A DNA stretch of 64,000 nt from Lepisosteus oculatus. Taxonomy: Eukaryota > Chordata > Actinopteri > Semionotiformes > Lepisosteidae. The position numbers and the translations under genes are program-made. The notes under the pieces were generated by a model, which was given only the letters and a program-made list of their open reading frames with translations, made no database searches and was not told where the DNA came from. Where the stretch lies: the NCBI RefSeq assembly GCF_040954835.1, contig NC_090709.1, positions 39,842,475 through 39,906,474 of the forward strand, given 5' to 3'. This document shows positions 7,331 to 59,571 of the stretch, in pieces (positions within the stretch are counted from its first letter, which is position 1; each line of letters begins with the position of its first letter).

Positions 7331-7407
7331 AATAAATGCGATTAATTAAGTTCAGCCCTCCACGGGGGGGGGGGGGGGTGCGTTTGACAAAAGGCAGGGG
7401 GAAGAGG

Positions 7408-19338: not shown

Positions 19339-19571
19339 ACACCGAGAAGAGAGAATGTCATGATCTCTATTATCACTGTGACGTCACCATCTGTGCAGTC
19401 CCGACTCCAGAATCTCTGCCTGGCATGTAAGAACAAGTCAACAAGAGCAACAACCACACAACTATCACAGCGACCGACACCGCTGCAGGACGAGCAGCCG
19501 GCTCAGATGTCGCCCCCTGGCGGCCACAAGCGCCACTGCAGGCCGAGTCAAGTGCAGCTCACGGTCAGATC

Positions 19572-24900: not shown

Positions 24901-25984
24901 GCAACTAAAACGACAGAATCACATTCTACAACAACTCCAACAACAACTTGTAGAACTCCAGGAAAACCTCCATCTACAGTAGGTAATGACTCCTCATTCT
25001 TAATCCCAGACAGAGGACAGCTCTGAATGCTCTGATTCATTAGTCTTATCTGTGCTCTATTATATCATCTGTAGTCGAGCTGGCACTGAGACTGACCACT
25101 TTCCTCATTGTCCTGATCATCCCTCTGGTCATTGGAGTCACTATCTATACCAAGAGGAGGAACAGCAAACTCACAGGCAAGTAACAGAGCAGTGGAGTCA
25201 GTCTAGAGCAGGTCTGTCCACAGGCTGTAAACTCCAGTAAAGGAGCAGTGGAGTCAGTCTAGAGCAGGTCCGTCCACAGGCTGTAAACTCCAGTAACGGA
25301 GCAGTGGAGTCAGTCTAGAGCAGGTCCGTCCACAGGCTGTAAACTCCAGTAAGAGAGCAGTGGAGTCAGTCTAGAGCAGGTCTGTTCACAGGCTGTAAAC
25401 TCCAGTAACAGAGCAGTGGAGTCATTCTAGAGCAGGTCAGTCCACAGGCTGTAAACTCCAGTAACAGAGCAGTGGATTCATTCTAGAGCAGGTCCGTCCA
25501 CAGGCTGTAAACTCCAGTAACAGAGCAGTGGAGTCAGTCTAGAGCAGGTCCGTTCACAGGCTGTAAACTCCAGTAACAGAGCAGTGGAGTCATTCTAGAG
25601 CAGGTCCGTCCACAGGCTGTAAACTCCAGTAACAGAGCAGTGGAGTCAGTCTAGAGCAGGTCTGTCCACAGGCTGTAAACTCCAGTAACAGAGCAGTGGA
25701 GTCAGTCTAGAGCAGGTCTGTCCACAGGCTGTAAACTCCAGTAACGGAGCAGTGGAGTCAGTCTAGAGCAGGTCCGTCCACAGGCTGTAAACTCCAGTAA
25801 CAGAGCAAATTGTGCTTGAAATTCTCACCAGGGACTCTCAGTCTCAGTCCATCAGCTTCAGTTTGTCAGGTGATGGTGATCCTCCTGCTGACTACAGTCT
25901 GATCTGATTCTCCCTACAGAAGACTCGTCTCGTGGAACTGCAGGTCCGGTCCCGACTGTGATAAACGAAGAGAAAGGATGTTAG
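21946..25984 (+). CDS. Ig-superfamily receptor gene 1: V + C2, arginine TM, short tail
   Basis: Likely type I leukocyte surface receptor of 307 aa; I know no established name. The signal exon is at 22479-22545 (alternative copy 21946-22012, MSVDTERGLLLV). Further exons: V domain 23060-23362, C2 domain 24071-24370, stalk 24896-24982, membrane 25075-25176, tail 25920-25984. All junctions are phase 1. The V domain has SVTLPC, TTWVF and DAGQYVC, plus a second cysteine pair (DCST, SDCS) and an NRT glycosylation sequon. The C2 domain has VTLHC, IWVTETG and QWRC. The short stalk holds one cysteine (TTCRTP), a possible dimer contact. The membrane segment begins ELALRLTTFLIV with arginine near its outer edge, and the tail ends INEEKGC without tyrosine. 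This resembles receptors that signal through FcR-gamma or CD3-zeta adaptors (inference). Confidence 0.85.
22045..22335 (+). repeat. 54-bp minisatellite between duplicated signal exons of gene 1
   Basis: About five units with GATCGTCAGTGTGATTCAGT and AGATCAGACAGAGAGGAGAC. It begins soon after the donor of signal exon 1a and ends at promoter copy 1b. The same arrangement occurs at genes 3 and 5. Confidence 0.95.
22350..22478 (+). promoter_or_regulatory. Receptor gene 1 promoter, downstream copy (1b)
   Basis: Second copy of the promoter block, with the TATA-like GTATAAGACAC and GGGAAATTGTGTCACAGCTC, directly before signal exon 22479-22545. Confidence 0.6.
25181..25800 (+). repeat. 56-bp minisatellite at the donor of the gene 1 TM exon
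   Basis: About 11 units of GTAACAGAGCAGTGGAGTCA plus GTCTAGAGCAGGTCCGTCCA and CAGGCTGTAAACTCCA. The first unit begins four bases after the end of the transmembrane exon at 25176. The same array is at gene 2 (31485-32105) and, inverted, at gene 4 (44290-44685). Confidence 0.96.
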
Positions 25985-28709: not shown

Positions 28710-31700
28710 ATGAGTGTGGACACTGAGAGAGGACTGCTGCTGGTGCTGCTACTCAACACTGCTCACCTCGGCACAGGTAAGAGCCTCCCTCCTGCGTGAG
28801 AACCGGCGCTGACAGAATAAGGAACCGGTGTGCAGGAGCTCAGCGCAGGAAGTGCTATTTGAAGTCCTGTCCCCAGCGTGCGCCGCGATCGATGTGAGCA
28901 GTTCAGTACCAGACTCGAGAGGTGCTGAACATTATTATTTTACTGGCTAATTCGTCATTGCAACTGTGGAGGAACATGAGCTGACAATCTCTGTGGTACA
29001 GACAGTCAGAACCTGTAGTCTGCTGGTAAAGATTGTGATGCTGTATCTCAGCTCATCAAACAGCAGGTCTTGTCATAGAACAGTGTGTTTCATGAAGCTC
29101 CCTGTTTTGGAAAGAGTTGAGGATAAAGAGAAAATCGGGCTAGTGCTTGTAAAATCCCCTCAGAGAACAGTACTTGAATGAGTATTATTTTTATAGAGCT
29201 TGGTATTCAACAGAGACCTCTACTGACCAGAATGACTCACTGTACCATTTCTCTTTTAATGGGTCTTTTCACGGACCTTTTCCCCCAGGTGACACTGTGT
29301 TTTTCTCCACTGTGGGAGGGAGTGTCACTCTGCCCTGTAGAGGAGTGATCAGGACAGACTGTTCCACAACTACATGGCTCTTCAGCTCCAGACCTCAGAG
29401 AACAGCTGTTGAACTGGTTACTCTGGGGAGGATCGGAGACCAGAAGCCAGGGAGAGTGAGTCTGGGGTCTGACTGCTCTCTGCACGTCCACACTCTCAGC
29501 ACACAGGACACTGGACTATACACCTGTCAGCAGTTTGTCAATGACCAGCAGCAAGGACAGGATTCTCCTGTCTATCTGTCCCTCCTCACCAGTAAGTCTC
29601 TGTCAGTTTCATACCGCCGAATCTCAAATACATTTCTGATCATTCAAATAGGTTTTGTGTTTCTGAAGCAGAATTTTAATGGTTACACAGCCAACACATG
29701 AGTTAAAAAAACAGTTGGATCATAATGTAATAAAATTATTCTCTTGCACTGAAACCCCTTCTAACTTAAAATCCCTGAATTCGTGAGAGCTCTCAATGCA
29801 AACCAAAACAAACCTTTAAAAGGTCACCTCTGTGTCCAAGATAACACAGGTATAGAAACATGAGCTTCACTTTTAGATCACATTAGCAAGATAATCTGTG
29901 AATTACTGCAGTACTCTGCACTGCTTCAGACAAGACATGGAAATCACACTGATAAAGGATCTGTAACTTGGAGTATCTGTGCAACACTGTCTTTAAACTG
30001 GTGCTCACTGACTGCACTGTTCCCTGATACTACACTACCAGCAAACTGACTATTCTCACTCACTCTGAACATGGAAGCCTGTGCTCAGTTTGTTGGGCCC
30101 TCCAGATAGGGGGTGGTCTGTAAACTCTGCACTAAGTGCTACTGTGTGCTGAGGTGGAAAACACTGTGCAGCAGGACAGATGTCTGCAGAAGAGGCTCTC
30201 AGTCCTTCCTGTGCTCCTCAGGGGCCAACTGCTCTGTCCTCTCTGCTCAGCCCTGAGTCAGTCCTACTCTGACCTGTGATCTCGTCTCTCTGTTTCCCAG
30301 TTCAAGTCTCTCCAGGGGCAGAGCTGAGGACCGGCAGCACTGTGACTCTACACTGTCTCCTGGACACTTATCGGGGTCCTGCACTCTGTTTCTCATACCT
30401 ACAAGCATCAATTAAAGTGATCTGGGTGACTGAGACAGGAGCTGAGCTGCAGGGAGACAGATACCAGATCAGCTCCTCTCTCTGCAGCTCCAATCTGACT
30501 GTGAGACTGCAGCCCTCAGACCACAGCAGGCAGTGGAGATGTGATGTAACACAGGAGCGAGCAGTGAAGTTCACACACAGATACTCCACTCCGCTCACAG
30601 GTACAGATTGTATGACTCCTGGACAGAGTGCAGAAATAACTATTTAATTCTTGTTAACATACGTCAAATTGTGCCAAAATTGTTGATTTCTAAAGTGCAG
30701 AATACAAGAAGTATTAAAGATAACAACACCGTCAATCATTTAACAATTAACATTGTGTTCCTGTGGTATAGTGAGGGATTCACAAAGAATTCACTTACTG
30801 TACCTCTAAAACACAATGACAATCAGCTGTCATTTTGCACACTGCAGACCTATCGCAGCCCTTAATCCTCTGCTGGAGAAACAGACTTCCTTCAGTCCCT
30901 GAGAGTGAGCCTGTCTCGTACCAGAGCACACTGACACGAGGACAATGATGTGGGCGTTGCCTTGAGAGGGGTGCAGGAACAGGGGCTTCATTCTCAAGTG
31001 CTGGAGGACACACAGCAGGGTTTAGACTCTAGGACAGTTTGACAAGCACACACCATCAAGAGAAAAGAGTCTGTTCTGTGTGGTTCTCACTACACCTGTG
31101 TTTCTTCACAGACAAAGCAACTGTAGCGACTGAATCAACTTCTACAACAACTCCAACCACAACTTCTAAAACAACTCCAACCACAACTCCTACAACAATT
31201 CCAGCCACATCTCCTACAACAACTTCAACCTCAACTTCTAGAACAACTCCAACCACAACTCCAGGAAAAACTCCATCTACAGTAGGTAATGACCCCTCAT
31301 TCTTAATCCCAGACAGAGGACAGCTCTGAATGCTCTGATTCATTAGTCTTATCTGTGCTCTATTATATCACCTATAGTCGAGCTGGCACTGAGACTGACC
31401 ACTTTCCTCATTGTCCTGATCATCCCTCTGGTCATTGGAGTCACTATCTATACCAAGAGGAGGAACAGCAAACTCACAGGCAAGTAACAGAGCAGTGGAG
31501 TCAGTCTAGAGCAGGTCTGTCCACAGGCTGTAAACTCCAGTAACGGAGCAGTGGAGTCAGTCTAGAGCAGGTCCGTCCACAGGCTGTAAACTCCAGTAAC
31601 GGAGCAGTGGAGTCAGTCTAGAGCAGGTCCGTCCACAGGCTGTAAACTCCAGTAACGGAGCAGTGGAGTCAGTCTAGAGCAGGTCTGTCCACAGGCTGTA

Positions 31701-32269
31701 AACTCCAGTAACGGAGCAGTGGAGTCAGTCTAGAGCAGGTCTGTCCACAGGCTGTAAACTCCAGTAACGGAGCAGTGGAGTCAGTCTAGAGCAGGTCTGT
31801 CCACAGGCTGTAAACTCCAGTAACAGAGCAGTGGAGTCAGTCTAGAGCAGGTCCGTCCACAGGCTATAAAAACCAGTAACGGAGCAGTGGAGTCAGTCTA
31901 GAGCAGGTCCGTCCACAGGCTGTAAACTCCAGTAACGGAGCAGTGGAGTCGGTCTAGAGCAGGTCCGTTCACAGGCTGTAAACTCCAGTAACGGAGCAGT
32001 GGAGTCGGTCTAGAGCAGGTCCGTACACAGGCTGTAAACTCCAGTAACGGAGCAGTGGAGTCGGTCTAGAGCAGGTCTGTTCACAGGCTGTTAACTCCAG
32101 TAACAGAGCAAATTGTGCTTGAAATTCTCACCAGGGACTCTCAGTCTCAGTCCATCAGCTTCAGTTTGTCAGGTGATGGTGATCCTCCTGCTGACTACAG
32201 TCTGATCTGATTCTCCCTACAGAAGACTCGTCTCCTGAGGTGGAACTGGAGGTCCGGTCCCGACTGTGA
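28710..32269 (+). CDS. Ig-superfamily receptor gene 2: V + C2, arginine TM, short tail
   Basis: Tandem duplicate of gene 1, predicting 330 aa. Exons: signal 28710-28776, V domain 29289-29591, C2 domain 30301-30600, stalk 31112-31285, membrane 31378-31479, tail 32223-32269. Phases agree throughout. The V domain has SVTLPC, TTWLF and DTGLYTC with the extra DCST and SDCS cysteines. The stalk is threonine/proline-rich and 58 codons long, twice that of gene 1, and probably O-glycosylated; it lacks the gene 1 cysteine. The membrane segment is the same arginine-containing type (ELALRLTTFLIV). The tail reads EDSSPEVELEVRSRL and stop: a five-base difference from gene 1 puts the shared DNA into another frame. 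There is no tyrosine motif, so an activating, adaptor-dependent receptor is the simplest reading (inference). Confidence 0.85.
31485..32105 (+). repeat. 56-bp minisatellite at the donor of the gene 2 TM exon
   Basis: About 11 units of the 56-bp family, beginning at the splice donor region of the membrane exon as in gene 1. Confidence 0.96.
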
Positions 32270-35017: not shown

Positions 35018-38000
35018 ATGAGTGTGGACACTGAGAGAGGACTGCTGCTGGTGCTGCTACTCAACACTGCTCACCTCGGCACAGGTAAGAGCCTCCCTCC
35101 TCAACACACTGCACCTCACAGGACACGTACAAGACACACACTGCAGTCTGATCGTCAGTGTGATTCAGCAGATCAGACAGAGAGAAGACACACACTGCAG
35201 TCTGATCGTCAGTGTGATTCAGTAGATCAGACAGAGAGGAGACACACACTGCAGTCTGATCGTCAGTGTGATTCAGTAGATCAGACAGAGAGAAGACACA
35301 CACTGCAGTCTGATCGTCAGTGTGATTCAGTAGATCAGACAGAGAGAAGACACACACTGCAGTCTGATCGTCAGTGTGATTCAGTAGATCAGACAGAGAG
35401 GAGACACACACTGCAGTCTGATCGTCAGTGTGATTCAGTAGATCAGACAGAGAGGAGACACACACTGCAGTCTGATCGTCAGTGTGATTCAGTAGATCAG
35501 ACAGAGAGGAGACACATCAGATCAGAAACGCTTACAGCCCAGCAGTGTAAGGGAAATTGTGTCACAGCTCTCAGTATAAGACACCGACTCACACACCCTG
35601 AGGCGCTGTGCTTGTCCTGGAGAGATACAGAGCAGAGAGTGATCACAGGGACAGGGTGAGAATGAGTGTGGACACTGAGAGAGGACTGCTGCTGGTGCTG
35701 CTACTCCACACTGCTCACCTCAGCACAGGTAAGAGCCTCCCTCCTGCGTGAGAACCGGCACTGAGAGAATGAGGAACCGGTGTGCAGGAGCTCGGCGCAG
35801 GAAGCGTTATTTGAAGTCCTGTCCCCAGCGTGCGCAGCGATCGATGTGAGCAGTTCAGTACCAGACTCGAGAGGTGCTGAACATTATTATTTTACTGGCT
35901 AATTCGTCATTGCAACTGTGGAGGAACATGAGCTGACAATCTCTGTGGTACAGTCAGAAGCTGTAGTCTGCTGGTAAAGATTTTGATGCTGTATCTCAGC
36001 TCATCAAACAGCAGGTCTTGTCATAGAACAGTGTGTTTCATGAAGCTCCCTGTTTTGGAAAGAGTTGAGGATAAAGAGAAAATCGGGCTAGTGCTTGTAA
36101 AATCCCCTCAGAGAACAGTACTTGAATGAGTATTATTTTTATAGAGCTTGGTATTCAACAGAGACCTGTACCGACCAGAATGACTCACTGTACCATTTCT
36201 CTTTTAATGGGTCTTTTCACGGACCTTTTCCCCCAGGTGACACTGTGTTTTTCTCCACTGTGGGAGGGAGTGTCACTCTGCCCTGTAGAGGAGTGAACAG
36301 GACAGACTGTTCCACAACTACATGGGTCTTCAGCTCCAGACCTCAGAGAGCAGCTGTTGAACTGGTTACTCTGGGGAGGATCAGAGACCAGAAGCCAGGG
36401 AGAGTGAGTCTGGGGTCTGATTGCTCTCTGCACGTCCACACTCTCAGCACACAGGACGCTGGACAGTATGTCTGTCAGCAGTTTGTCAATGACCAGCAGC
36501 AAGGACAGGATTCTACTGTCTATCTGTCCCTCCTCACCAGTAAGTCTCGAGTCAGTTTCATACCGCCGAATCTCAAATACATTTCTGATCATTCAAATAG
36601 GTTTTGTGTTTCTGAAGCAGAATTTTAATGGTTACACAGCCAACACATGAGTTAAAAACACAGTTGGATCATAATGTAATAAAATTATTCTCTTGCACTG
36701 AAACCCCTTCTAACTTAAAATCCCTGAATTCGTGAGAGCTCTCAATGCAAACCAAAACAAACCTATAAAAGGTCACCTCTGTGTCCAAGATAACACAGGT
36801 ATAGAAACATGAGCTTCACTTTTAGATCACATTAGCAAGATAATCTGTGAATTACTGCAGTACTCTGCACTGCTTCAGACAAGACATGGAAATCACACTG
36901 ATAAAGGATCTGTAACCTGGAGTATCTGTGCAACACTGTCTTTAAACTGGTGCTCACTGACTGCACTGTTCCCTGATACTACACTACCAGCAAAGACTAT
37001 TCTCACTCACTCTGAACATGGAAGCCTGTGCTCAGTTTGTTGGGCCCTCCAGATAGGGGGTGGTCTGTAAACTCTGCACTAAGTGCTACTGTGTGCTGAG
37101 GTGGAGAACACTGTGCCGCAGGACAGATGTCTGCAGAAGAGGCTCTCAGTCCTTCCTGTGCTCCTCAGGGGCCAACTGCTCTGTCCTCTCTGCTCAGCCC
37201 TGAGTCAGTCCTGCTCTGTGACCTGTGATCTCGTCTCTCTGTTTCCCAGTTCAAGTCTCTCCAGGGGCAGAGCTCAGGACCGGCAGCACTGTGACTCTAC
37301 ACTGTCTCCTGGACACTTATCGGGGTCCTGCACTCTGTCTCTCATACCTACACTCTTATACAGTGAGCTGGGTGACTGAGACAGGAGCTGAGCTGCAGGG
37401 AGACAGATACCAGATCAGCTCCTCTCTCTGCAGCTCCACACTGACTGTGAGACTGCAGCCCTCAGACCACAGCAGGCAGTGGAGATGTGCTGTAACACAG
37501 GATCGAGCAGTGAAGTTCACACACAGATACTCCACTCTGCTCACAGGTACAGATTGTATGACTCCTGGCCAGGGTACAGAATTAACTTCTCAATTCTCAA
37601 TGTCACAGGTGTTTTCTTCTCTCAATGGGCAATGAGATCCTTCATTCATACAGTCAAACCAACCTTTGGTTTCTACAGCACAGAGCACAACAAGTACTAA
37701 ATGTATTATCACCTCGACTCTTAAAGTAAGATCCCAATTAAGAAGAATTAACAACCGGTAATTCACCCATAATTAATTTACAGTATGTCTACGAGACAAT
37801 GACAGTCTGCTGTCATTTTGCACACTGCAGACCTATCGCAGCCCTTAATCCTCTGCTGGAGAAACAGACTTCCTTCAGTCCCTGAGAGTGAGCCTGTCTC
37901 GTACCAGAGCACACTGACACGAGGACAACGATGTGGGCGTTGCCTTGAGAGGGGTGCAGGAACGGGGGCTTCATTCTCAAGTGCTGGAGGACACACAGCA

Positions 38001-40901
38001 GGGTTTAGACTCTAGGACAGTTTGACAAGCACACACCATCAAGAGAAAAGAGTCTGTTCTGTGTGGTTCTCACTACACCTGTGTTTCTTCACAGGCAAAG
38101 CAACTGTGACGACTGAATCAACTTCTACAACAACTCCAACCACAATTCCTACATCAACTCCAACCTCGACTCCTACATCAACTCCAACCTCGACTCCTAC
38201 ATCAACTCCAACCTCAACTCCTACATCAACTCCAACCTCGACTCCTACATCAACTCCAACCTCAACCCCTACATCAACTCCAACCTCAACTCCAACCTCT
38301 ACTATGACAACCTCCTCTCCCAGAGTCTCCAATCCAGCACCTCAAACCTCGACTCCTCCTACAGCTCCTCTCTCACCAGGTACTGATCTCTCTCTGGACC
38401 CTCGGGGGTCCCGGCAGATCCCTGTGGACCAGGGGGCTCCGTGTCCGAGCGGCGCTCTGCCCACTCAGGACCCAGCACGGTCCACAGTCCACAGTGAGGG
38501 GCTGTGACAGGGAGATCACAGCCGGAAACACCTGGCAGGCCGCGTCTCTCCCAGTCTGAGGGGGGGTAGTTCTTCCTGCTGGTTGAAACTGCAGACAGCC
38601 TCTCCACAGGTCTGTGATGCTCTGTTGTCTGGAGGGAGGAGCTGTCAGCTGACCAGGAGAAGTGTCTTTAAACACGGACAGAGTGACCTGTCACTGCTCT
38701 TACACTCCAGGGCTGAGTTTCCACGGGCTGACTGCAGCTCAGTGACCGAATCTGCAGGTTCGCTCCTGGAGTCAGACTGGGAGGTCATTACCGGCAGGAA
38801 AGAGCTCCCTCTACTGGACAGCACTGTGCACTGCACTGTAACTGTCTGTCCATCCTCCTCTCCTCCTCCAGTCTCTCTCTCACTGTCCATCCTTCTCTCC
38901 CCCTCCAGTCTCTCTCTCACTGTCTGTCCATCCTCTCCTCCTCCAGTCTCTCTCACTGTCTGCCCATCCTCCGCTCCTCGTCCAGTCTCTCACCCTGTCT
39001 GTCCATCCTCTCCTCCTCCAGTCTCTCTCTCACTGTCTGTCCATCCTGCTCTCCCCCTCCAGTCTCTCTCTCACTGTCTGTCCATCCTCCTCTCCCCCTC
39101 CAGTCTCCCGGACGATGCTCATTCTCATCCCTGTTGCCGTGGTGATGGCGGGAGCTGGGGTCTGTGTGCTGGTCCTCAGGGCCCGGAGGCGAGCAGGTGA
39201 GACACTCAGCTCAGGGTCGTGACCCCCAGCCAGTGGGCGCGTGTGTGTGTGTGTGTGTGTATAATTGCGTACAGGTGTGTGTGTGAGTGTGTATATGTGC
39301 GTACAGGTGTGTGTGTGTGTGTGAGAGTGTGTTTGAGTGTGTGAGTGTGACAGTGTGACTGTGTTTGGCCACATCAGTGTTTTCCCTGTGATACACTGGC
39401 ATCCTACCCAGCCTGTACCCCCTGTGCCCTCTGTCTGCCCCGTCCGTCTCTGATGCCCCCACACCCCTCTCTTAGAGCAGAGCCGCACCTGAGGACGAGT
39501 CTGCCCTGCCCAGTGCCCAGCCTGTACCCCCTGTGCCCTCTGTCTGCCCCGTCCGTCTCTGAACCCCCACACCCCTCTCTAAGAGCAGAGCCGCACCTGA
39601 GGACGAGTCTGCCCTGCCCAGTGCCCAGACTGTACCCCCTGTGCCCTCTTTTTGCCCCGACGGTCTCTGATGCCCCCACACCCCTCTCTAAGAGCAGAGC
39701 CGCACCTGAGGACGAGTCTGCCCTGCCCAGTGCCCAGCCTGTACCCCCTGTGCCCTCTTTTTGCCCCGACGGTCTCTGATGCCCCCACACCCCTCTCTGA
39801 GAGCAGAGCCGCACCTGAGGAGGAGTCTGCCCTGCCCAGTGCCCAGCCTGTACCCCCTGTGCCCTCTGTCTGCCCCGTCCAGCTCTGAACCCCCACACCC
39901 CTCTCTAAGAGCAGAGCCGCACCTGAGGACGAGTCTGCCCTGCCCAGTGCCCAGCCTGTACCCCCTGTGCCCTCTTTTTGCCCCGACGGTCTCTGACGCC
40001 CCCACACCCCTCTCTGAGAGCAGAGCCGCACCTGAGGAGGAGTCTGCCCTGCCGCAGTGCCCAGCCTGTCCCGAAGGGGGCAGCGTGGCACAGTTCACAC
40101 CCGGGCCGCGGAGCCCGGCGGCGCTCTCGGCTCTGACCCGACTCGTGTTTTCCAGGCAGCGGGAACGAGGCTGGGAAGGGAGAGGCCGCAGAGGTAAGTA
40201 AGACCCCCCGCGCCCTCGCGGGACCAGCCCCTCGGACAGGTCTGGCTCAGACATGCCTTGCTGCCCAGCTCCTCCTGCCCCGCTGGGAAAGACAGCAATA
40301 TTCCCAGAGCTGCTTTCACAGCACTGAAAGTACATTCCTTCCTGCTCCAGAGGACCTCCAGAGGACCAGGGGCAGGGTCATTCAGAACCGGCATTTCCGG
40401 AACGAAACGCTTAATAGACTCGATATAGACCTGAGCAAGATGGCCGCCATCTATAGCTCAGGAGTACCAGCTGACCCGCTGCTGGAAAAGGCCTATGCAA
40501 GGAGACACGGGCGAGCTACATCAGGACACAGGATATAAATGACCCTTCCCCCCGGGTCCTCTTACACACTGCTCAGCTGGAAGAAAACGCCCTTTTCCAC
40601 GAAAGACCGAACCTTTCGCGTTCATCCGCGGAGGTTCAGAAATCGATCTGATAAAAAAACAAAACAAACAGGGCACGGTAGGTTTGGAGGCAGAGTAATT
40701 CACGGCCTAGTTCAGGAGGGTGAGGCAAGTGTTTCTCTCGCGCGAAATGGGCAATATCGGTGAACTGTCCTTCCCGTCTCTCCCTCACAGAGTGACCCCA
40801 CCGACCTCTCCTACGCCACGGTCAACTTCAGCGCAGCCAGACAGAGAGACCGGGCTCCTGCTGCCCAAAGCACAGAGTACGCCACACTCAGACTGGGCTA
40901 G
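35018..40901 (+). CDS. Ig-superfamily receptor gene 3: V + C2, mucin stalk, ITIM tail
   Basis: Predicts an inhibitory-type receptor of 397 aa. Exons: signal 35662-35728 (alternative 35018-35084), V domain 36237-36539, C2 domain 37250-37546, stalk 38095-38379, membrane 39104-39196, tails 40156-40193 and 40791-40901. Phases agree. The ectodomain closely matches genes 1 and 2. The 95-codon stalk is threonine/serine/proline-rich with tandem PTST repeats. The membrane segment (LILIPVAVVMAGAGVCVLVL) lacks the arginine of genes 1 and 2 and is followed by RARRRA. The tail has LSYATV (Tyr369), a canonical ITIM, and TEYATL (Tyr391), which fits the ITSM/ITIM pattern, four residues before the stop. SHP-type phosphatase recruitment is known for such motifs; function here is inferred. 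The terminal motif is repeated as DNA downstream of the stop (see the 84-bp array). Confidence 0.87.
35125..35515 (+). repeat. 54-bp minisatellite between duplicated signal exons of gene 3
   Basis: About seven units of the same 54-bp family as at gene 1. The array is open in the reading frame of signal exon 3a, giving a TLQSDRQCDSVDQTERRH repeat if the intron were retained. Confidence 0.95.
35537..35661 (+). promoter_or_regulatory. Receptor gene 3 promoter, downstream copy (3b)
   Basis: Conserved promoter block with GGGAAATTGTGTCACAGCTC and the TATA-like GTATAAGACAC, before signal exon 35662-35728. Confidence 0.6.
38115..38310 (+). repeat. Coding 24-bp repeat in the gene 3 stalk
   Basis: Tandem CCAACCTCGACTCCTACATC plus AACT units within the stalk exon, encoding repeated PTSTPTST. 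Third-position C/G/A differences distinguish units. Confidence 0.92.
38836..39103 (+). repeat. About 44-bp pyrimidine-rich minisatellite ending at the gene 3 TM acceptor
   Basis: About six units of TCTCTCTCACTGTCTGTCCA followed by TCCTCCTCTCCCCCTCCAG. Each unit ends in an acceptor-like CTCCAG. The last one is the acceptor of the membrane exon at 39104. Confidence 0.9.
39240..40065 (+). repeat. TG tract and about 108-bp minisatellite in a gene 3 intron
   Basis: A GT-rich stretch (39240-39355), then about six units with GCCTGTACCCCCTGTGCCCT, CCCACACCCCTCTCT and AGAGCAGAGCCGCACCTGAG (from about 39411). It lies between the membrane and first tail exons. Confidence 0.93.
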
Positions 40902-43680
40902 AGGACACAGCCTCTCCACACTGACTCACTGCTAAAGCACACTGCTGCCCAGAGCACAGAGTACGCCACACTCAGACTGCGCCACAGGACACAGCCTCTC
41001 CACACTGACTCACTGCTAAAGCACACTGCTGCCCAGAGCACAGAGTACGCCACACTCAGACTGGGCCAGAGGACACAGCCTCTCCACACTGACTCACTGC
41101 TAAAGCACACTGCTGCCCAGAGCACAGAGTACGCCACACTCAGACTGCGCCAGAGGACACAGCCTCTCCACACTGACTCACTGCTAAAGCACACTGCTGC
41201 CCAGAGCACAGAGTACGCCACACTCAGACTGCGCCACAGGACACAGCCTCTCCACACTGACTCACTGCTAAAGCACACTGCTGCCCAGAGCACAGAGTAC
41301 GCCACACTCAGACTGCGCCACAGGACACAGCCTCTCCACACTGACTCACTGCTAAAGCACACTGCTGCCCAGAGCACAGAGTACGCCACAGTCAGACTGC
41401 GCCAGAGGACACAGCCTCTCCACACTGACTCACTGCTAAAGCACACTGCTGCCCAGAGCACAGAGTACGCCACAGTCAGACTGGGCCAGAGGACACAGCC
41501 TCTCCACACTGACTCACTGCTAAAGCACACTGCTGCCCAGAGCACAGAGTACGCCACAGTCAGACTGCGCCAGAGGACACAGCCTCTCCACACTGACTCA
41601 CTGCTAAAGCACACTGCTGCCCAGAGCACAGAGTACGCCACAGTCAGACTGGGCCAGAGGACACAGCCTCTCCACACTGACTCACTGCTAAAGCACACTG
41701 CTGCCCAGAGCACAGAGTACGCCACAGTCAGACTGCGCCAGAGGACACAGCCTCTCCACACTGACTCACTGCTAAAGCACACTGCTGCCCAGAGCACAGA
41801 GTACGCCACACTCAGACTGCGCCAGAGGACACAGCCTCTCCACACTGACTCACTGCTAAAGCACACTGCTGCCCAGAGCACAGAGTACGCCACAGTCAGA
41901 CTGCGCCAGAGGACACAGCCTCTCCACACTGACTCACTTCTAAAGCACACTGCTGCCCAGAGCACAGAGTACGCCACACTCAGACTGCGCCAGAGGACAC
42001 AGGCTCTCCACACTGACTCACTGCTAAAGCACACTGCTGCCCAGAGCACAGAGTACGCCACACTCAGACTGGGCTAGAGGACACAGCCTCTCCACACTGA
42101 CTCACTGCTAAAGCACACTGCTGCCCAGAGCACAGAGTACGCCACACTCAGACTGCGCCAGAGGACACAGCCTCTCCACACTGACTCACTGCTAAAGCAC
42201 ACTGCTGCCTAGAGCACAGAGTACGCCACAGTCAGATTGCGCCAGAGGACACAGCCTCTCCACACTGACTCACTGCTAAAGCACACTGCTGCCCAGAGCA
42301 CAGATTACGCCACACTCAGACTGGGCTAAAGGACACAGCCTCTCCACACTGACTCACTGCTAAAGCACACTGCTGCCCAGAGCACAGAGTACGCCACACT
42401 CAGACTGGGCCAGAGGACACAGGCACTCCACACTGACTCACTGCTAAAGCACACTGCTGCCCAGAGCACAGAGTACGCCACACTCAGACTGCGCCAGAGG
42501 ACACAGCCTCTCCACACTGACTCACTGCTAAAGCACACTGCTGCCCAGAGCACAGAGTACGCCACAGTCAGACTGCGCCAGAGGACACAGGCTCTCCACA
42601 CTGACTCACCGCTAAAGCACACTGCTGCCCAGAGCACAGAGTACGCCACACTCAGACTGCGCCAGAGGACACAGCCTCTCCACACTGACTCACTCCTAAA
42701 GCACACTGCTGCCCAGAGCACAGAGTACGCCACACTCAGACTGCGCCAGAGGACACAGCCTCTCCACACTGACTCACTGCTAAAGCACACTGCTGCCCAG
42801 AGCACAGAGTACGCCACACTCAGACTGCGCCAGAGGACACAGCCTCTCCACACTGACTCACTGCTAAAGCACACTGCTGCCCAGAGCAGAGAGTACGCCA
42901 CACTCAGACTGCGCCAGAGGACACAGCCTCTCCACACTGACTCACTGCTAAAGCACACTGCTGCCCAGAGCACAGAGTACGCCACACTCAGACTGCGCCA
43001 GAGGACACAGCCTCTCCACACTGACTCACTGCTAAAGCACACTGCTGCCCAGAGCACAGAGTACGCCACAGTCAGACTGCGCCAGAGGACACAGCCTCTC
43101 CACACTGACTCACTGCTAAAGCACACTGCTGCCCAGAGCACAGAGTACGCCACACTCAGACTGCGCCAGAGGACACAGCCTCTCCACACTGACTCACTGC
43201 TAAAGCACACTGCTGCCCAGAGCACAGAGTACGCCACACTCAGACTGCGCCAGAGGACACAGCCTCTCCACACTGACTCACTGCTAAAGCACACTGCTGC
43301 CCAGAGCACAGAGTACGCCACACTCAGACTGCGCCAGAGGACACAGCCTCTCCACACTGACTCACTGCTAAAGCACACTGCTGCCCAGAGCACAGAGTAC
43401 GCCACACTCAGACTGCGCCAGAGGACACAGGCTCTCCACACTGACTCACTGCTAAAGCACACTGCTGCCCAGAGCACAGAGTACGCCACAGTCAGACTGC
43501 GCCAGAGGACACAGCCTCTCCACACTGACTCACTGCTAAAGCACACTGCTGCCCAGAGCACAGAGTACGCCACAGTCAGACTGCACCAGAGGACACAGCC
43601 TCTCCACACTGACTCACTGCTAAAGCACACTGCTGCCCAGAGCACAAAGTACGCCACACTCAGACTGCGCCAGAGGACAA
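40872..43680 (+). repeat. 84-bp minisatellite made from the ITSM-coding end of gene 3
   Basis: Thirty-four units at an exact 84-bp spacing, from ACAGAGTAC at 40872 to ACAAAGTAC at 43644 (33 x 84 = 2772). The first unit is the end of the last coding exon. Read in the gene 3 frame, each unit is 28 codons beginning TEYATL or TEYATV. Stops occur only at 40899-40901, 42075-42077, 42327-42329 and 43722-43724. The array lies between the stop codon and the poly(A) signals, so it should be 3' UTR in the normal mRNA. Minus-strand open frames of 387 and 464 codons are shadows of the repeat. Confidence 0.97.
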
Positions 43681-43719
43681 TGATTGCCTGCAAAGACAAA
43701 TGGGCATTTCTTAACTCCA

Positions 43720-43873
43720 AATAAAAATGGGCTAAATACAGTGTTTAATCCAGCTGTGTTAACAATGTCCTACTTCTTGATCTGCATTTGTGCCGGTGCT
43801 TCTGTAAAACTTTGCTGTTAAATCTGTTCTTCCTATTTTTATACCTAAGGGTATTGTTTTAAATGAGAATAAA
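43720..43873 (+). terminator. Gene 3 polyadenylation signals
   Basis: AATAAA occurs at 43720-43725 and 43868-43873, both just after the 84-bp array. No signal is evident within the array, so the mature 3' UTR should carry all 34 units. Confidence 0.6.
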
Positions 43874-44157: not shown

Positions 44158-47100
44158 TCAGTTCCTGGTGTCAAGTTCAGTCCACGATTCTTCTGTAGGG
44201 AAAATCATATGGAATAACAATCAGTTCTTGCTTACTGGAGCAACAGAATTCAACTGACTGAGACTGAGAGTGTCTGTACACAATATTCCTGGAGTTTACA
44301 GTCTGTGAACAGACCTGCTCTAGACTGACTCCACTGCTCTGTTACTGGAGTTTACAGCCTGTGGACAGACCTGCTCTAGACTGACTCCGCTGATCCGTTA
44401 CTGGAGTTTACAGCCTGTGGACAGACCTGCTCTAGACTGACTCCACTGCTCTGTTACTGGAGTTTACAGCCTGTGGACAGACCTGCTCTAGACTGACTCC
44501 ACTGCTCTGTTACTGGAGTTTACAGCCTGTGAACAGACCTGCTCTAGACCGACTCCACTGCTCTGTTACTGGAGTTTACAGCCTGTGGACAGACCTGCTC
44601 TAGACTGACTCCACTGCTCTGTTACTGGAGTTTACAGCCTGTGGACAGACCTGCTCTAGACTGACTCCACTGCTCCGTTACTTGCCTGCGAGTTTGCTGT
44701 TCCTCCTCTTGGTATAGATGACGACTCCAACGACCAGAGGGATGATGAGGACAATGAAGAAGACGGTCAGTCTCACGGCCAACACTGCAGCCGACACAAA
44801 CGACACAAGAGTCGGTTTCATTATATCAAAGGTACTCATGACTTCCATCTAGACATCCGCCTGACCCAGACTACCTGGTTGTTGACCGGCAGTGGCCTGG
44901 ACTCTGCCCTTCAGCTGCCTGCCTATACCGTACAAGCTTCACTAAGGACATAAGCTGGTAAGACAGGTCACAGACATACTGTCACGGACGTCCAAAGGGA
45001 CTCACCGTGGGGAGCAGGAGAGCGGAAAAAGACCCATATGCGTAGCGGCGAGACGGGAAAAAGGCCCGGGCTCATTAGTGCAAAGAGTTCAGGAATGCCG
45101 TATAGAAACCTGTGCCCTCAGGGAGCGGACGTGGGGCGCCCTGGTGCTAGGCGGGTCTCAGGACATCCGAACAACAATGCTGAGCGAGGACAGAGTGCAA
45201 GACCCGGAAATATAGAGCCCCAGGGAAAGAGAGGAACTGGAAGGACAGCAGACCGGAAACTAGGGACAGGACAGAGAAGGAGCGCCCTCTGGCTGCAGAG
45301 GCCGTGACAGATACAGTATCGCTACCCACCTCCTCCCTGACTAAACATTTTGCAAAAACCGGCCCATGAAGTCCCTGACTGAAGGGAGACCAGAAGACCC
45401 CAGTGTGTCTCCAGAGGACCCGGAGCCGAGAGTCAGAGGTCTACATGTACAGGACGGCCGCTCAGAAGCTGAGAAACAGGGAGGCCTGGGGGGAGGGGGA
45501 CGGGGGGACAGTTCCGTCTCCTTGTCCGTCGCACCCATCTGGCCCTGGTGAGAGAGAGGGGGGGGTTTGTGTCTCTCAGCCCAGCCCCGTGTTTCCTGTG
45601 TGTCCTCTCTCAGGCAAACCCTCGAGTGTGAAGACAGGTAAGGACGCTCGCAGCCCGTTTAACACCAGAATGGACAGCCAGTGGCTCATGGACAACACCA
45701 CACAGCCTGTGTCCATCATCGGCAGGGGCTGCTATGTACCTGTCACTGATGAGCTCGTCATTTCTGGTCCTGGTCCTGGCTCTGACTGGGTCACTGGTGT
45801 CTTCCCTGCTGGGGAGGTCTCTGTTCTCCCGGGTTTCTGAGGGGTCGGTCTTGCACCAGACCCATCTGGAGAGAAAGAGAGGATTCAGGAGCGAATCAGG
45901 AAGCTCAGCGCTGTGACTGCTGACCCAGGGTCAGCTCCTGGTCCGACAGTCTGCCCCTGCTTGTCCCTGCGCACTGGAGCTGTATTTAATCCAGTATGTT
46001 TAACCAGGAAACCATGCAAGGAAACATTAACAACTATTGTATTCACACACTGGTGACAACATCTGTGAGACTCTCACTGCTCGATCCTGTGTCAGACCAC
46101 ATCTCCACTGCCTGCTGTGGTCTGAGGGCTGCAGCCTCACAGTCACACAGAGGAACAGACAGACAAGCACCAGCAGCAGACTGTACCTGTGAGCAGAGTG
46201 GAGTATCTGTGTGTGAACGTCACTGCTCGATCCTGTGTTACATCACATCTCCACTGCCTGCTGTGGTCTGAGGGCTGCAGTCTCACAGTCAGATAGGAGC
46301 TGCAGGGAGAGGAGCTGATCTGGTATCTGTCTCCCTGCAGCTCAGCTCCTGTCTCAGTCACCCAGATCACTGTATAAGAGTGTAGAGGTGAGGGACAGTG
46401 TTCAGGACTCCAGTTAGTGTCCAGGAGACAGTGTAGAGTCACAGTGCTGCCGGTCCTCAGCTCTGCCCCTGGAGAGACTTGAACTGGGAAACAGAGAGAC
46501 GAGATCACAGGTCACAGAGCAGGACTGACTCAGGGCTGAGCAGAGAGGACAGAGCTGGTTCTCTGGCAAATATGCAAACACGGGACTTTTTAAGAAACGC
46601 TTTCAAACAACAAAATAAAATAAAAAAACAACTCAGAGGAACAGAAAAGGGCTTTGGAGCTAAAAACTTGAAAAACTCTCTGTGGTTTTGAGTTTTGCCC
46701 CTTTGCTGGTGTGTGTGAACTGTCCAGTTTGCGGATTGACTGTCTTGTTGTGTCGCACACGCCTCGGTATAAAGACACACCACCAGGAATTCCTGCACTG
46801 TCTGTGTGTTTACTGAATGCATTCGCTGTAAGAGGAGTTTTAATGCGATTTCCCTGATGGGATCAATAAAGTATCTATCTATCCTTAAAATAAGAATAAA
46901 CTGCTGTTTTTTTAATGCAGCTGGTAGCAAACGTTGTGCCCTGTGGCAGAGTTTAAGAGCAAGGTATCCAACGGAGGCGACAGAATAAACAGAGGGCTCC
47001 TTGGTAATGATTTCCTGCCCCTGAACCGGAGCCAACAGACTGCGGTTTCCCTAAATAAATAAAGCCTCAGGAAACAGTGTGATTCGATCAAATAGACGTC

Positions 47101-48295: not shown

Positions 48296-48479
48296 ACTCT
48301 TCTCCACAATGTATTTTGAACTTTGTGATAAATATACGTGTTTGAACGTACAGCGCAGTGAGACCGACACTTCCTCTCTCTTCAAACACGGGCTGAGTTT
48401 CTCTCTGTGGTCGGGGCTCGAACCTGGGTTTGAAGGACTTCGTACACAGGTGAGCTGACACCACACACACACACACTAG

Positions 48480-51400
48480 TGTGGGTCAGTCTTGGTACAG
48501 TATCAGGCCCCAGTGTGTAGAGAGTGTGGAGCCCTGGGGTTGTGTTAGTGTGCGTCAGTCTTGGTACAGTATCAGGCCCCAGTGTGTAGAGAGTGTGTAG
48601 CCCTGGGGTTGTGTTAGTGAGGGTCAGTCTTGGTACAGTATCAGGCCCCAGTGTGTAGAGAGTGTGGAGCCCTGGGGTTGTGTTAGTGTGGGTCAGTCTT
48701 GGTACAGTATCAGGCCCCAGTGTGTAGAGAGTGTGGAGCCCTGGGGTTGTGTTAGTGTGGGTCAGTCTTGGTACAGTATCAGGCCCCAGTGTGTAGAGAG
48801 TGTGGAGCCCTGGGGTTGTGTTAGTGCGGGTCAGTCTTGGTACAGTATCAGGCCCCAGTGTGTAGAGAGTGTGGAGCCCTGGGGTTGTGTTAGTGCGGGT
48901 CAGTCTTGGTACAGTATCAGGCCCCAGTGTGTAGAGAGTGTGTAGCCCTGGGGTTGTGTTAGTGAGGGTCAGTCTTGGTACAGTATCAGGCCCCAGTGTG
49001 TAGAGAGTGTGTAGCCCTGGGGTTGTGTTAGTGAGGGTCAGTCTTGGTACAGTATCAGGCCCCAGTGTGTAGAGAGTGTGGAGCCCTGGGGTTGTGTTAG
49101 TGTGGGTCAGTCTTGGTACAGTATCAGGCCCCAGTGTGTAGAGAGTGTGGAGCCCTGGGGTTGTGTTAGTGTGGGTCAGTCTTGGTACAGTATCAGGCCC
49201 CAGTGTGTAGAGAGTGTGTAGCACTGGGGTTGTGTTAGTGTGGGTCAGTCTTGGTACAGTATCAGGCCCCAGTGTGTAGAGAGTGTGGAGCCCTGGGGTT
49301 GTGTTAGTGTGGGTCAGTCTTGGTACAGTATCAGGCCCCAGTGTGTAGAGAGTGTGTAGCGCTGGGGTTGTGTTAGTGTGGGTCAGTCTTGGTACAGTAT
49401 CAGGCCCCAGTGTGTAGAGAGTGTGGAGCCCTGGGGTTGGGTTAGTGTGGGTCAGTCTTGGTACAGTATCAGGCCCCAGTGTGTAGAGAGTGTGTAGCCC
49501 TGGGGTTGTGTTAGTGTGGGTCAGTCTTGGTACATTATCAGGCCCCAGTGTGTAAAGAGTGTGTAGCCCTGGGGTTGTGTTAGTGCGGGTCAGTCTTGGT
49601 ACAGTATCAGGCCCCAGTGTGTAGAGAGTGTGGAGCCCTGGGGTTGTGTTAGTGTGGGTCAGTCTTGGTACAGTATCAGGCCCCAGTGTGTAGAGAGTGT
49701 GTAGCCCTGGGGTTGTGTTAGTGTGGGTCAGTCTTGGTACAGTATCAGGCCCCAGTGTGTAGAGAGTGTGTAGCGCTGGGGTTGTGTTAGTGTGGGTCAG
49801 TCTTGGTACAGTATCAGGCCCCAGTGTGTAGAGAGTGTGGAGCCCTGAGGTTGTGTTAGTGAGGGTCAGTCTTGGTACAGTATCAGGCCCCAGTGTGTAG
49901 AGAGTGTGTAGCCCTGGGGTTGTGTTAGTGTGGGTCAGTCTTGGTACAGTATCAGGCCCCAGTGTGTAGAGAGTGTGTAGCCCTGGGGTTGTGTTAGTGC
50001 GGGTCAGTCTTGGTACAGTATCAGGCCCCAGTGTGTAGAGAGTGTGGAGCCCTGGGGTTGTGTTAGTGTAGGTCAGTCTTGGTACAGTATCAGGCCCCAG
50101 TGTGTAGAGAGTGTGTAGCCCTGGGGTTGTGTTAGTGTGGGTCAGTCTTGGTACAGTATCAGGCCCCAGTGTGTAGAGAGTGTGGGGCCCTGGGGTTGTG
50201 TTAGTGTGGGTCAGTCTTGGTACAGTATCAGGCCCCAGTGTGTAGAGAGTGTGGGGCCCTGGGGTTGTGTTAGTGTGGGTCAGTCTTGGTACAGTATCAG
50301 GCCCCAGTGTGTAGAGAGTGTGTGGCCCTGGGGTTGTGTTAGTGTGGGTCAGTCTTGGTACATTATCAGGCCCCAGTGTGTAAAGAGTGTGTAGCCCTGG
50401 GGTTGTGTTAGTGAGGGTCAGTCTTGGTACATTATCAGGCCCCAGTGTGTAGAGAGTGTGGAGCCCTGGGGTTGTGTTAGTGTGGGTCAGTCTTGGTACA
50501 GTATCAGGCCCCAGTGTGTAGAGAGTGTGGGGCCCTGGGGTTGTGTTAGTGTGGGTCAGTCTTGGTACAGTATCAGGCCCCAGTGTGTAGAGAGTGTGTA
50601 GCCCTGGGGTTGTGTTAGTGTGGGTCAGTCTTGGTACAGTATCAGGCCCCAGTGTGTAGAGAGTGTGGGGCCCTGGGGTTGTGTTAGTGTGGGTCAGTCT
50701 TGGTACAGTATCAGGCCCCAGTGTGTAGAGAGTGTGTAGCCCTGGGGTTGTGTTAGTGAGGGTCAGTCTTGGTACAGTATCAGGCCCCAGTGTGTAGAGA
50801 GTGTGTAGCCCTGGGGTTGTGTTAGTGAGGGTCAGTCTTGGTACAGTATCAGGCCCCAGTGTGTAGAGAGTGTGGAGCCCTGGGGTTGTGTTAGTGTGGG
50901 TCAGTCTTGGTACAGTATCAGGCCCCAGTGTGTAGAGAGTGTGGAGCCCTGGGGTTGTGTTAGTGTGGGTCAGTCTTGGTACAGTATCAGGCCCCAGTGT
51001 GTAGAGAGTGTGTAGCACTGGGGTTGTGTTAGTGTGGGTCAGTCTTGGTACAGTATCAGGCCCCAGTGTGTAGAGAGTGTGGAGCCCTGGGGTTGTGTTA
51101 GTGTGGGTCAGTCTTGGTACAGTATCAGGCCCCAGTGTGTAGAGAGTGTGTAGCGCTGGGGTTGTGTTAGTGTGGGTCAGTCTTGGTACAGTATCAGGCC
51201 CCAGTGTGTAGAGAGTGTGGAGCCCTGGGGTTGTGTTAGTGTGGGTCAGTCTTGGTACAGTATCAGGCCCCAGTGTGTAGAGAGTGTGTAGCCCTGGGGT
51301 TGTGTTAGTGCGGGTCAGTCTTGGTACATTATCAGGCCCCAGTGTGTAAAGAGTGTGTAGCCCTGGGGTTGTGTTAGTGCGGGTCAGTCTTGGTACAGTA

Positions 51401-52780
51401 TCAGGCCCCAGTGTGTAGAGAGTGTGGAGCCCTGGGGTTGTGTTAGTGTGGGTCAGTCTTGGTACAGTATCAGGCCCCAGTGTGTAGAGAGTGTGTAGCC
51501 CTGGGGTTGTGTTAGTGTGGGTCAGTCTTGGTACAGTATCAGGCCCCAGTGTGTAGAGAGTGTGTAGCGCTGGGGTTGTGTTAGTGTGGGTCAGTCTTGG
51601 TACAGTATCAGGCCCCAGTGTGTAGAGAGTGTGGAGCCCTGAGGTTGTGTTAGTGAGGGTCAGTCTTGGTACAGTATCAGGCCCCAGTGTGTAGAGAGTG
51701 TGTAGCCCTGGGGTTGTGTTAGTGTGGGTCAGTCTTGGTACAGTATCAGGCCCCAGTGTGTAGAGAGTGTGTAGCCCTGGGGTTGTGTTAGTGCGGGTCA
51801 GTCTTGGTACAGTATCAGGCCCCAGTGTGTAGAGAGTGTGGAGCCCTGGGGTTGTGTTAGTGTAGGTCAGTCTTGGTACAGTATCAGGCCCCAGTGTGTA
51901 GAGAGTGTGTAGCCCTGGGGTTGTGTTAGTGTGGGTCAGTCTTGGTACAGTATCAGGCCCCAGTGTGTAGAGAGTGTGGGGCCCTGGGGTTGTGTTAGTG
52001 TGGGTCAGTCTTGGTACAGTATCAGGCCCCAGTGTGTAGAGAGTGTGGGGCCCTGGGGTTGTGTTAGTGTGGGTCAGTCTTGGTACAGTATCAGGCCCCA
52101 GTGTGTAGAGAGTGTGTAGCCCTGGGGTTGTGTTAGTGTGGGTCAGTCTTGGTACATTATCAGGCCCCAGTGTGTAAAGAGTGTGTAGCCCTGGGGTTGT
52201 GTTAGTGAGGGTCAGTCTTGGTACATTATCAGGCCCCAGTGTGTAGAGAGTGTGGAGCCCTGGGGTTGTGTTAGTGTGGGTCAGTCTTGGTACAGTATCA
52301 GGCCCCAGTGTGTAGAGAGTGTGGGGCCCTGGGGTTGTGTTAGTGTGGGTCAGTCTTGGTACAGTATCAGGCCCCAGTGTGTAGAGAGTGTGTAGCCCTG
52401 GGGTTGTGTTAGTGTGGGTCAGTCTTGGTACAGTATCAGGCCCCAGTGTGTAGAGAGTGTGGGGCCCTGGGGTTGTGTTAGTGTGGGTCAGTCTTGGTAC
52501 AGTATCAGGCCCCAGTGTGTAGAGAGTGTGTAGCCCTGGGGTTGTGTTAGTGTGGGTCAGTCTTGGTACAGTATCAGGCCCCAGTGTGTAGAGAGTGTGT
52601 AGCCCTGGGGTTGTGTTAGTGTGGGTCAGTCTTGGTACATTATCAGGCCCCAGTGTGTAAAGAGTGTGTAGCCCTGGGGTTGTGTTAGTGTGGGTCAGTC
52701 TTGGTACAGTATCAGGCCCCAGTGTGTAGAGAGTGTGTAGCCCTGGGGTTGTGTTAGTGTGGGTCAGTCTTGGTACAGTA
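48480..52780. repeat. 69-bp minisatellite between divergent genes 4 and 5
   Basis: About 62 units of 69 bp with GTGTGGGTCAGTCTTGGTAC, AGTATCAGGCCCCAGTGTGT and CCCTGGGGTTGTGTTA. The minus strand is open for 878 codons because the unit is a multiple of three. Rare variants recur at a spacing of 1794 bp (26 units): GCACTGG at 49221 and 51015, CCTGAGGTTG at about 49844 and 51638, and TACATT at 50359 and 52153. A block of the array has therefore been duplicated recently. Confidence 0.97.
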
Positions 52781-52968
52781 TACCAAGTGACAGTACAGGC
52801 AAAACCGTCCAGTCCATAAAAATGAAAGTATTTCGCTGGAAAACATACATTCAGTGAGATTATAACCCACTAGATGTGAAGGAATTCATCCTGTGTTTTA
52901 AGAATGCGGAAGTACTGTATCGGCGTTACTATATATGTCTGAAAATGTGTCGCTTTTAAGTTTAGAAT

Positions 52969-59000: not shown

Positions 59001-59571
59001 GTGCAGTGTTCATGTCCTGGAGTGTCCAGTCAGGGTGTGTGTATGAACCCCTCTCTCTCAGTGCAGTGTTCATGTACTGGAGTGTCCAGTCAGTGTGTCT
59101 GTGTGAACCCCTCTCTCTCTCAGTGCAGTATTCATGTACTGGAGTGTCCAGTCAGTGTGTGTGTGTGAACCCCTCTCTCTCTCAGTGCAGTGTTCATGTA
59201 CTGGAGTGTCCAGTCAGTGTGTGTGTATGAACCCCTCTCTCTCTCACTGCAGTGTTCATGTACTGGAGTGTCCAGTCAGTGTGTCTGTATGAACCCCTCT
59301 CTCTCTCAGTGCAGTGTTCATGTACTGGAGTGTCCAGTCAGTGTGTCTGTGTGAACCCCTCTCTCTCTCAGGGCAGTGTTCATGTACTGGAGTGTCCAGT
59401 CAGTGTGTCTGGATTAACCCCTCCCTCCCTCTCTCTCAGGCCAATATGGAGGAACACTACATGAGTGTGACATTCTCACCCACAACAGACAACAGCTCTG
59501 AAGGAAAACCGAAGGACAAGTCCAGCGCAGGAGAGATGAACGTCATTTACTCCACAGTCAAGCACACATGA
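53093..59571 (+). CDS. Ig-superfamily receptor gene 5: V + C2, ITIM tail
   Basis: Predicts an inhibitory-type receptor of 364 aa. Exons: signal 53893-53959 (alternative 53093-53159), V domain 54800-55105, C2 domain 55414-55713, stalk plus membrane 56035-56259, tails 58231-58295 and 59440-59571. Phases agree. The V domain has SVTLPC, TTWVF and DTGLYTC with extra DCST and SDCS cysteines. The C2 domain has VTLHC, IWVTETG and QWRCDV. The proline/threonine-rich stalk (GGSGARPTPQKPGRTE) is followed by a membrane segment (AVAAVSGVCVLVLLVSAVGV) without a charged residue, then YTRRTKRQRG. The tail carries EHYMSV (Tyr328), a tyrosine motif lacking the usual -2 residue, and VIYSTV (Tyr358), a canonical ITIM. 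The last two introns are filled by the 87-bp and 62-bp arrays. Inhibitory signalling is inferred from the ITIM. Confidence 0.87.
53200..53750 (+). repeat. 54-bp minisatellite between duplicated signal exons of gene 5
   Basis: About ten units of the 54-bp family, in the same position as at genes 1 and 3. Confidence 0.95.
53768..53892 (+). promoter_or_regulatory. Receptor gene 5 promoter, downstream copy (5b)
   Basis: Conserved promoter block with GGGAAATTGCGTCACAGCTC and GTATAAGACAC, before signal exon 53893-53959. Confidence 0.6.
54150..54475. repeat. GACACACTGACACT-type repeat in gene 5 intron 1
   Basis: Short GACACTCT, ACACGCACTG and GACACT units, similar in style to the AIF1 intron repeats. 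Confidence 0.9.
56285..58130 (+). repeat. 87-bp minisatellite made from the gene 5 TM exon and donor
   Basis: About 21 units of 87 bp. Each contains GTGCTGGTCAGTGCAGTGGG, AGTGGTCATTATCATGAGAC and AGAGGGGTCAGTGTGTGAGT. The core matches the end of the membrane exon (GCTGGTCAGTGCCGTGGGAG, then GACAGAGGGGTCAGTGTGAG), including its splice donor. Most units read in the exon frame as VSSVLVSAVGVVIIMRQRGQ. Unit variants have GCAGTG, GCAGCA or ACAACA in the middle. Confidence 0.96.
58296..59439 (+). repeat. 62-bp minisatellite filling the last intron of gene 5
   Basis: About 18 units occupy the entire intron. The donor GTATGAACCCC and the acceptor CTCTCTCAG are themselves parts of the repeat unit. 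Orientation is sense for gene 5, that is, opposite to the arrays at 1-19.3 kb on the plus strand. Confidence 0.96.

Follow-up and report, generated by a model that had tools for sequence, protein, structure and literature searches.

An 84-bp minisatellite across the stop codon of a putative DICP-like receptor gene in Lepisosteus oculatus is best read as a 3' untranslated repeat

In a 64,000-nucleotide stretch of DNA from the spotted gar, Lepisosteus oculatus (NC_090709.1, positions 39,842,475 to 39,906,474; hereafter the window, whose internal coordinates are used throughout), the coding sequence of a receptor gene, gene 3, ends inside the first unit of a long 84-bp minisatellite. Gene 3 is an intact seven-exon model of 397 open codons on the + strand, and all of its introns are GT-AG. 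The domain order is a signal peptide, a V-set immunoglobulin (Ig) domain, a putative second Ig domain, a Ser/Thr/Pro stalk, a transmembrane (TM) segment and a cytoplasmic tail carrying the tyrosine motifs LSYATV and TEYATL. Diverse immunoglobulin domain-containing proteins (DICPs) are a family of fish proteins, and the product of gene 3 appears to be a DICP-like Ig receptor of the inhibitory type with a two-motif tail.

The signal-peptide exon (MSVDTERGLLLVLLLHTAHLSTG; 35662-35728) is homologous to the N-terminal part of annotated L. oculatus proteins and remains open in the joined model. The V-set exon (36237-36539) lies in an open reading frame that scores 29.4 bits against the Pfam V-set model (cut-off 26), and is 99% identical to the V domain of the annotated protein P0001. 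The exon for the second Ig domain (37250-37546) reaches the Pfam Ig models only below their cut-offs (I-set, E = 0.079), but its homology to the annotated relatives P0001-P0004 is clear. The mucin-like stalk exon (38095-38379) contains a 24-bp coding minisatellite (38118-38293) that encodes STPT repeats in the gene model and is a possible site of variation in stalk length. A TM exon (39104-39196), bordered by GT-AG introns, is predicted from a hydrophobic run that it encodes in the open model, and is followed by a short cytoplasmic exon (40156-40193) that ends in phase 0. The last coding exon (40791-40901) encodes SDPTDLSYATVNFSAARQRDRAPAAQSTEYATLRLG, followed by a TAG stop at 40899-40901, and aligns with the C-terminus of a relative from the bowfin (Amia).

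Tandem Repeats Finder (TRF) places the 84-bp minisatellite at 40858-43679 on the + strand (33.6 copies, 97% matches, no indels, score 5364). The initial annotation had described 34 exactly spaced units at 40872-43724. The period and the exact spacing stand, but in that register the array consists of 33 complete units plus 36 bases: repeat similarity starts 14 bases before 40872 and stops at 43679, and the final 45 bases of the annotated interval are unique sequence reaching a TAA at 43722. Unit 1 supplies the final 30 bases of the gene 3 coding sequence, as annotated. The first 44 bases of the array (to 40901) are coding in the gene model, and the remainder would be 3' untranslated region (UTR). 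At the sensitivity of a genome search in which few candidates were scored, the array and the tail exon were each found at one place, and no dispersed copies of either were found; a first look had passed only one and two candidates, respectively.

The motif is TEYATL in 20 units and TEYATV in 11; the annotated description of every unit as one of these two thus holds for 31 of 34, the others reading TDYATL, REYATL and TKYATL (one each). The commonest change between units is indeed CTC to GTC, seen in 11/34. The motifs had also been described as immunoreceptor tyrosine-based inhibitory (ITIM) or switch (ITSM) motifs throughout. By the usual consensus sequences, [SIVL]xYxx[ILV] for ITIM and TxYxx[VI] for ITSM, the 11 TEYATV units fit ITSM, whereas TEYATL is strictly neither. 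By the same consensus, LSYATV in the gene 3 tail is a strict ITIM and the terminal TEYATL is not.

Four in-frame stops lie within the array: TAG at 40899 (unit 1), TAG at 42075 (unit 15), TAG at 42210 (unit 16) and TAA at 42327 (unit 18). The third of these (42210-42212, codon 27 of its unit) had been overlooked when stops were assigned to units 1, 15 and 18 only. After the array, the next stop in the gene 3 frame is the TAA at 43722. Two long open stretches in this frame, of 391 and 464 codons, are as first reported. The first (40902-42074, units 1 to 15) contains the 14 TEYATL or TEYATV motifs originally counted, and no translation evidence was found for it; the second (42330-43724, units 18 to 34, closed by the TAA at 43722) contains 14 strict motifs, and the 16 originally counted are reached only if REYATL and TKYATL are included.

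The array sits between the gene 3 stop (40899) and a poly(A) signal, AATAAA at 43720-43725, on the same strand. This signal starts 41 bp past the array and includes the TAA at which the last open stretch ends; another AATAAA follows at 43868. Neither AATAAA nor ATTAAA occurs from the start of the last exon (40791) to the end of the array, so the transcript should carry the whole array as 3' UTR. A 3' UTR minisatellite is the best reading of the array, in keeping with the original description of a long repetitive 3' UTR in the normal mRNA: relatives end at the stop, and the first poly(A) signal is at 43720. The unit-1 stop is followed by A, and TAG-A is not known to be a leaky readthrough context.

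The position of the stop agrees with that in relatives that share a terminal motif. In gene 3 the stop lies three residues beyond TEYATL. Gene 5 of the same window (P0003) ends in VIYSTV followed by KHT, and the bowfin relative (P0006) in TEYATV followed by RLH, each stopping three residues past the terminal motif. Among the 19 related proteins found, this exact arrangement occurs only in these two; the last motif lies six residues from the end in P0016 and nine in P0015, and P0014 has a related VYATV near its end. The other 14 of the 19 either lack the pattern in their last 110 residues or have it at least 32 residues from the end. The 100 kb upstream of the window yielded four candidate gar receptor tails with two motifs each, in which the second motif is separated from the stop by two to four residues. 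The scan required a stop near the second motif, so tails that run on could not have appeared; of its nine rows, two were the array itself and three were dropped as low-complexity. In none of five other tails checked (gene 5 and the four upstream candidates) was an array seen across the stop. Because relatives end at the matching position, the unit-1 stop is most simply the ancestral end and the later units are extra. Most simply, then, unit 1 would hold the normal stop of the family.

While the array itself is far beyond chance, the open frame inside it is not. We collected tandem arrays of the window by a fixed rule (TRF period divisible by three and at least 12, at least 3 copies, at least 150 bp), which gave 19 regions including the 84-bp and stalk arrays. 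In 17 of them, at least one of the six frames is open over at least 40% of the length. A hand-picked set had given 13/13, with some arrays related or adjacent and others left out by the picking. Among 5000 random tandem 84-mers of like dinucleotide make-up, 93% had one fully open frame, and a given frame was open in 40%. The minus strand of the 84-bp array is likewise open, over 391 and 472 codons. The idea that a long open frame is a rarity was rejected on the basis of the window arrays and the random 84-mers. Since open frames are frequent in arrays with a period that is a multiple of three, they are weak evidence of coding, and the gar array shows why. Elsewhere in the window, a 69-bp array (48382-52869, minus strand, 62 copies) has 1495 open codons and is a useful control against mistaking repeats for genes.

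Of 7999 protein candidates scored, none proved to be related to the repeat reading. A further 8000 were scored in the length range expected of a receptor with such a tail, and none carried the array. The sole match in the long length range, P0019 (a 952-residue prediction), lacks the 84-bp repeat peptide and was discarded.

Changes between the units look neutral, at low power. Across the 34 units there are 14 variable columns, 16 distinct changes and 39 changed cells. In the gene 3 frame the 16 changes comprise five synonymous, nine missense and two involving a stop, while the expected synonymous share is 25.8% with no transition bias and 28.6% with a bias of 2; this comparison of synonymous with non-synonymous changes, proposed as a check in the initial annotation, revealed no constraint, although 16 changes give it low power. 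By codon position 1, 2 and 3, the distinct changes number 7, 3 and 6 (n = 16, again of low power). One of the stop-involving changes concerns the TAG of units 1 and 15 (TAA in unit 18), which is probably the older state; the other makes the new stop of unit 16. Variation is seen in 4 of the 18 motif columns (14 columns vary in all), with 3.0 expected (P of 4 or fewer, 0.86), and 14 of the 39 changed cells fall within the motif. The motif varies as much as the remainder of the unit, and conservation of the motif above it was rejected. As a candidate, selection on the repeat frame was dropped as well, the 16 changes showing no sign of coding at their low power.

The order of events can be read in part from the units. 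In units 1, 15 and 18 the stop is preceded by GGC; units 3, 8, 10 and 19 combine GGC with CAG; and the remaining units have CGC (or CAC) before CAG or CAC. The simplest order is that the stop was lost in one copy, a further change followed and amplification came afterwards. The 33 full units fall into 16 types in mixed order, nine units being identical to the consensus. Neighbouring units resemble each other only slightly more than they do when the order is shuffled (lag 1, P = 0.13; lag 2, P = 0.12), and no clear higher-order repeat emerged from the unit order.

We consider it very likely that the array is a passive 3' UTR minisatellite that arose by tandem duplication across the stop codon of gene 3. 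An 84-bp segment straddling the stop of the DICP-like receptor gene would have been duplicated in tandem; unit 1 would retain the functional end of the protein, with the second tyrosine motif and then the stop; and the later units would be non-coding 3' UTR copies, expanded and homogenized by ordinary repeat turnover. The later units would carry the motif because it was present in the founding segment, remain in frame because three divides 84 evenly and lack the stop because amplification acted on a copy in which TAG had become CAG. As part of the mRNA, the array would form a weakly structured 3' UTR of about 2.8 kb that extends to the AATAAA at 43720. What is observed is the array, the intact gene model, the matching stop in relatives, the lack of detectable codon constraint and the commonness of open frames; the history of amplification is inferred.

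Several points weigh against this interpretation. Two of the 19 array regions have no frame open over 40% of their length (7405-8902, period 363, 31%; 14403-15536, period 90, 39%). Synonymous changes are more numerous in the gene 3 frame (five) than in the other two forward frames (four and two), and with 16 distinct changes informing the neutrality test, weak coding constraint could still be present. The stop-less form dominates, with 30 of 34 units free of a stop in the gene 3 frame; selection for openness would give the same picture, although amplification alone is enough to explain it. UTR status, transcription and use of the poly(A) site are judged from the DNA. Finally, an annotated protein for gene 3 was not found among the 19 relatives.

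Among the alternatives, a role of the array as RNA is improbable but fares best. The roughly 34 copies of each short site might titrate an RNA-binding protein or a microRNA, or the length of the array might lower mRNA stability. Short sites do recur about 34 times (AAGCACA, which presumably resembles a microRNA seed site, is present 34 times), and three consecutive units fold less stably than 200 of 200 shuffles (z = +2.8). Any array yields such multiplicity, however, and chance seed matches are expected; no Rfam family was found at the gathering score in the window. A structured UTR RNA was rejected, the stability being below that of the shuffles.

Still less likely, in our judgement, is that the array serves as a reservoir for stop loss, in which unequal crossing-over or gene conversion with stop-less neighbours would remove the unit-1 stop in some haplotypes and add up to 14 motifs to the tail, making the array a source of polymorphic many-motif tails. 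Units 2-14 keep the frame open and differ very little from unit 1, and the diversity of unit types in mixed order suggests turnover. In addition, DICPs of gibel carp are reported to recruit SHP1 via their ITIM (PMC8662705). On the other hand, the sequenced haplotype retains the stop and has three further stops within the array, no codon constraint was detected, no array protein was among the candidates scored and relatives with a terminal motif stop right behind it. The signalling tail with many motifs put forward in the initial annotation has no positive evidence: the units show no codon constraint, unit 16 has gained a stop and no such protein was among the candidates scored. That reading has no support beyond an open frame that chance explains.

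An assembly artefact, with a wrong copy number or wrong stops, has a slim chance of being the explanation. Near-identical arrays are hard to assemble, but this one has 14 variable columns in mixed order, contains no indel over 2.8 kb and lies within a 60.0-Mb contig. Alternative splicing from the 40156-40193 exon to a CCCAG|AGC acceptor before a later unit, which would skip the unit-1 stop and give an in-frame many-motif tail, is the least probable: exon and acceptor are both phase 0 and the site is missing before unit 1 itself (CAA instead of CAG), but this best in-unit acceptor scores 2.9, which ranks it at the 95th percentile among the window's 5882 AGs, whereas the 13 acceptors (8 distinct) used to train the matrix score 12.3 to 23.6, values inflated by that training, and no protein of such form was among the 8000 candidates scored.

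The array is a genuine minisatellite of an ordinary kind that happens to start in an unusual place. Beginning in a last exon, it copies a protein motif dozens of times, seemingly without these copies entering the protein. If stop-less alleles did exist, they would show that turnover of a non-coding repeat can lead directly to a large increase in the number of signalling motifs; a single event would switch the phosphatase-docking valency (TxYxx(L/V) motifs) stored in a 3' UTR minisatellite.

Gene 3 is surrounded by related genes. Four of its neighbours have annotated proteins; none was seen for gene 3 itself. Genes 1, 2 and 4 (the last on the minus strand) have V exons that agree at 100% with the L. 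oculatus proteins P0001, P0002 and P0004, and two exons of gene 5 agree with P0003 at 99 and 100%; the other exons of P0001-P0004 align less closely. These four and P0008 belong to gene 3 neighbours or match better elsewhere in the window, P0019 agrees with the V exon of gene 3 at 86%, and the remaining 13 of the 19 relatives are named from other species. In the upstream 100 kb (C14:39742475-39842474, L007-L016), a minus-strand cluster contains seven further stretches that resemble the V domain of gene 3 (tblastn E of 2e-12 or better) and two weaker ones; its four two-motif tails end in YSDL, YSDI or YSNL. Among solved structures, the 60 matches listed out of 3260 are antibody chains, and a plasmid collection gave no match.

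The region is rich in tandem repeats, which cover 30,457 of the 64,000 bases of the window, 43,080 of 100,000 upstream and 56,399 of 100,000 downstream. A 62-bp minisatellite family lies at 1-2048, 10277-11045, 18469-19342 and 58296-59431, and its translation matches residues 39-98 of P0019, a predicted protein of related sequence. A 56-bp array at 25180-25807, 31483-32110 and 44289-44682 adjoins the TM exons of genes 1, 2 and 4 (inverted) and was probably carried along by gene duplication.

Among known systems, the nearest named family is DICP. Gene 3 shares with it a V-set domain followed by a putative second Ig domain, a stalk, a TM segment, tyrosine motifs in the tail and clustered copies; the named matches P0012 and P0013 have E values of 1.6e-33 and 2.4e-33 (Pimephales DICP 3.3, E = 1.6e-33 over 92% of the query). 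The identity is only 34-36%, however, and the gar proteins have no DICP name in the records consulted. No array of TEYAT units occurs in any of the 19 relatives; P0015 and P0016, with three tail motifs each, have the most. Nothing on the locus was found in the titles and abstract openings searched, and PMC8423624 and PMC12983459 contain no occurrence of DICP, NITR or repeat terms. Coding variable number tandem repeats (VNTRs) at protein C-termini, such as that in exon 11 of CEL (PMC8692231 and PMC5089759), resemble the gar array in being minisatellites located where a coding sequence ends. In gar, by contrast, the stop lies in the first unit and the array falls outside the normal protein. A coding VNTR lies within the reading frame of the mRNA; as judged from the genomic sequence, the gar array is interrupted by the unit-1 TAG and three more stops. 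The closer likeness is to minisatellites or VNTRs of 3' UTRs, which form a general class: the gar array is apparently non-coding, lies in a presumed transcribed 3' end, has near-identical units and shows a neutral pattern. Unlike the usual members of that class, its unit includes the last 30 coding bases and repeats a protein motif in frame.

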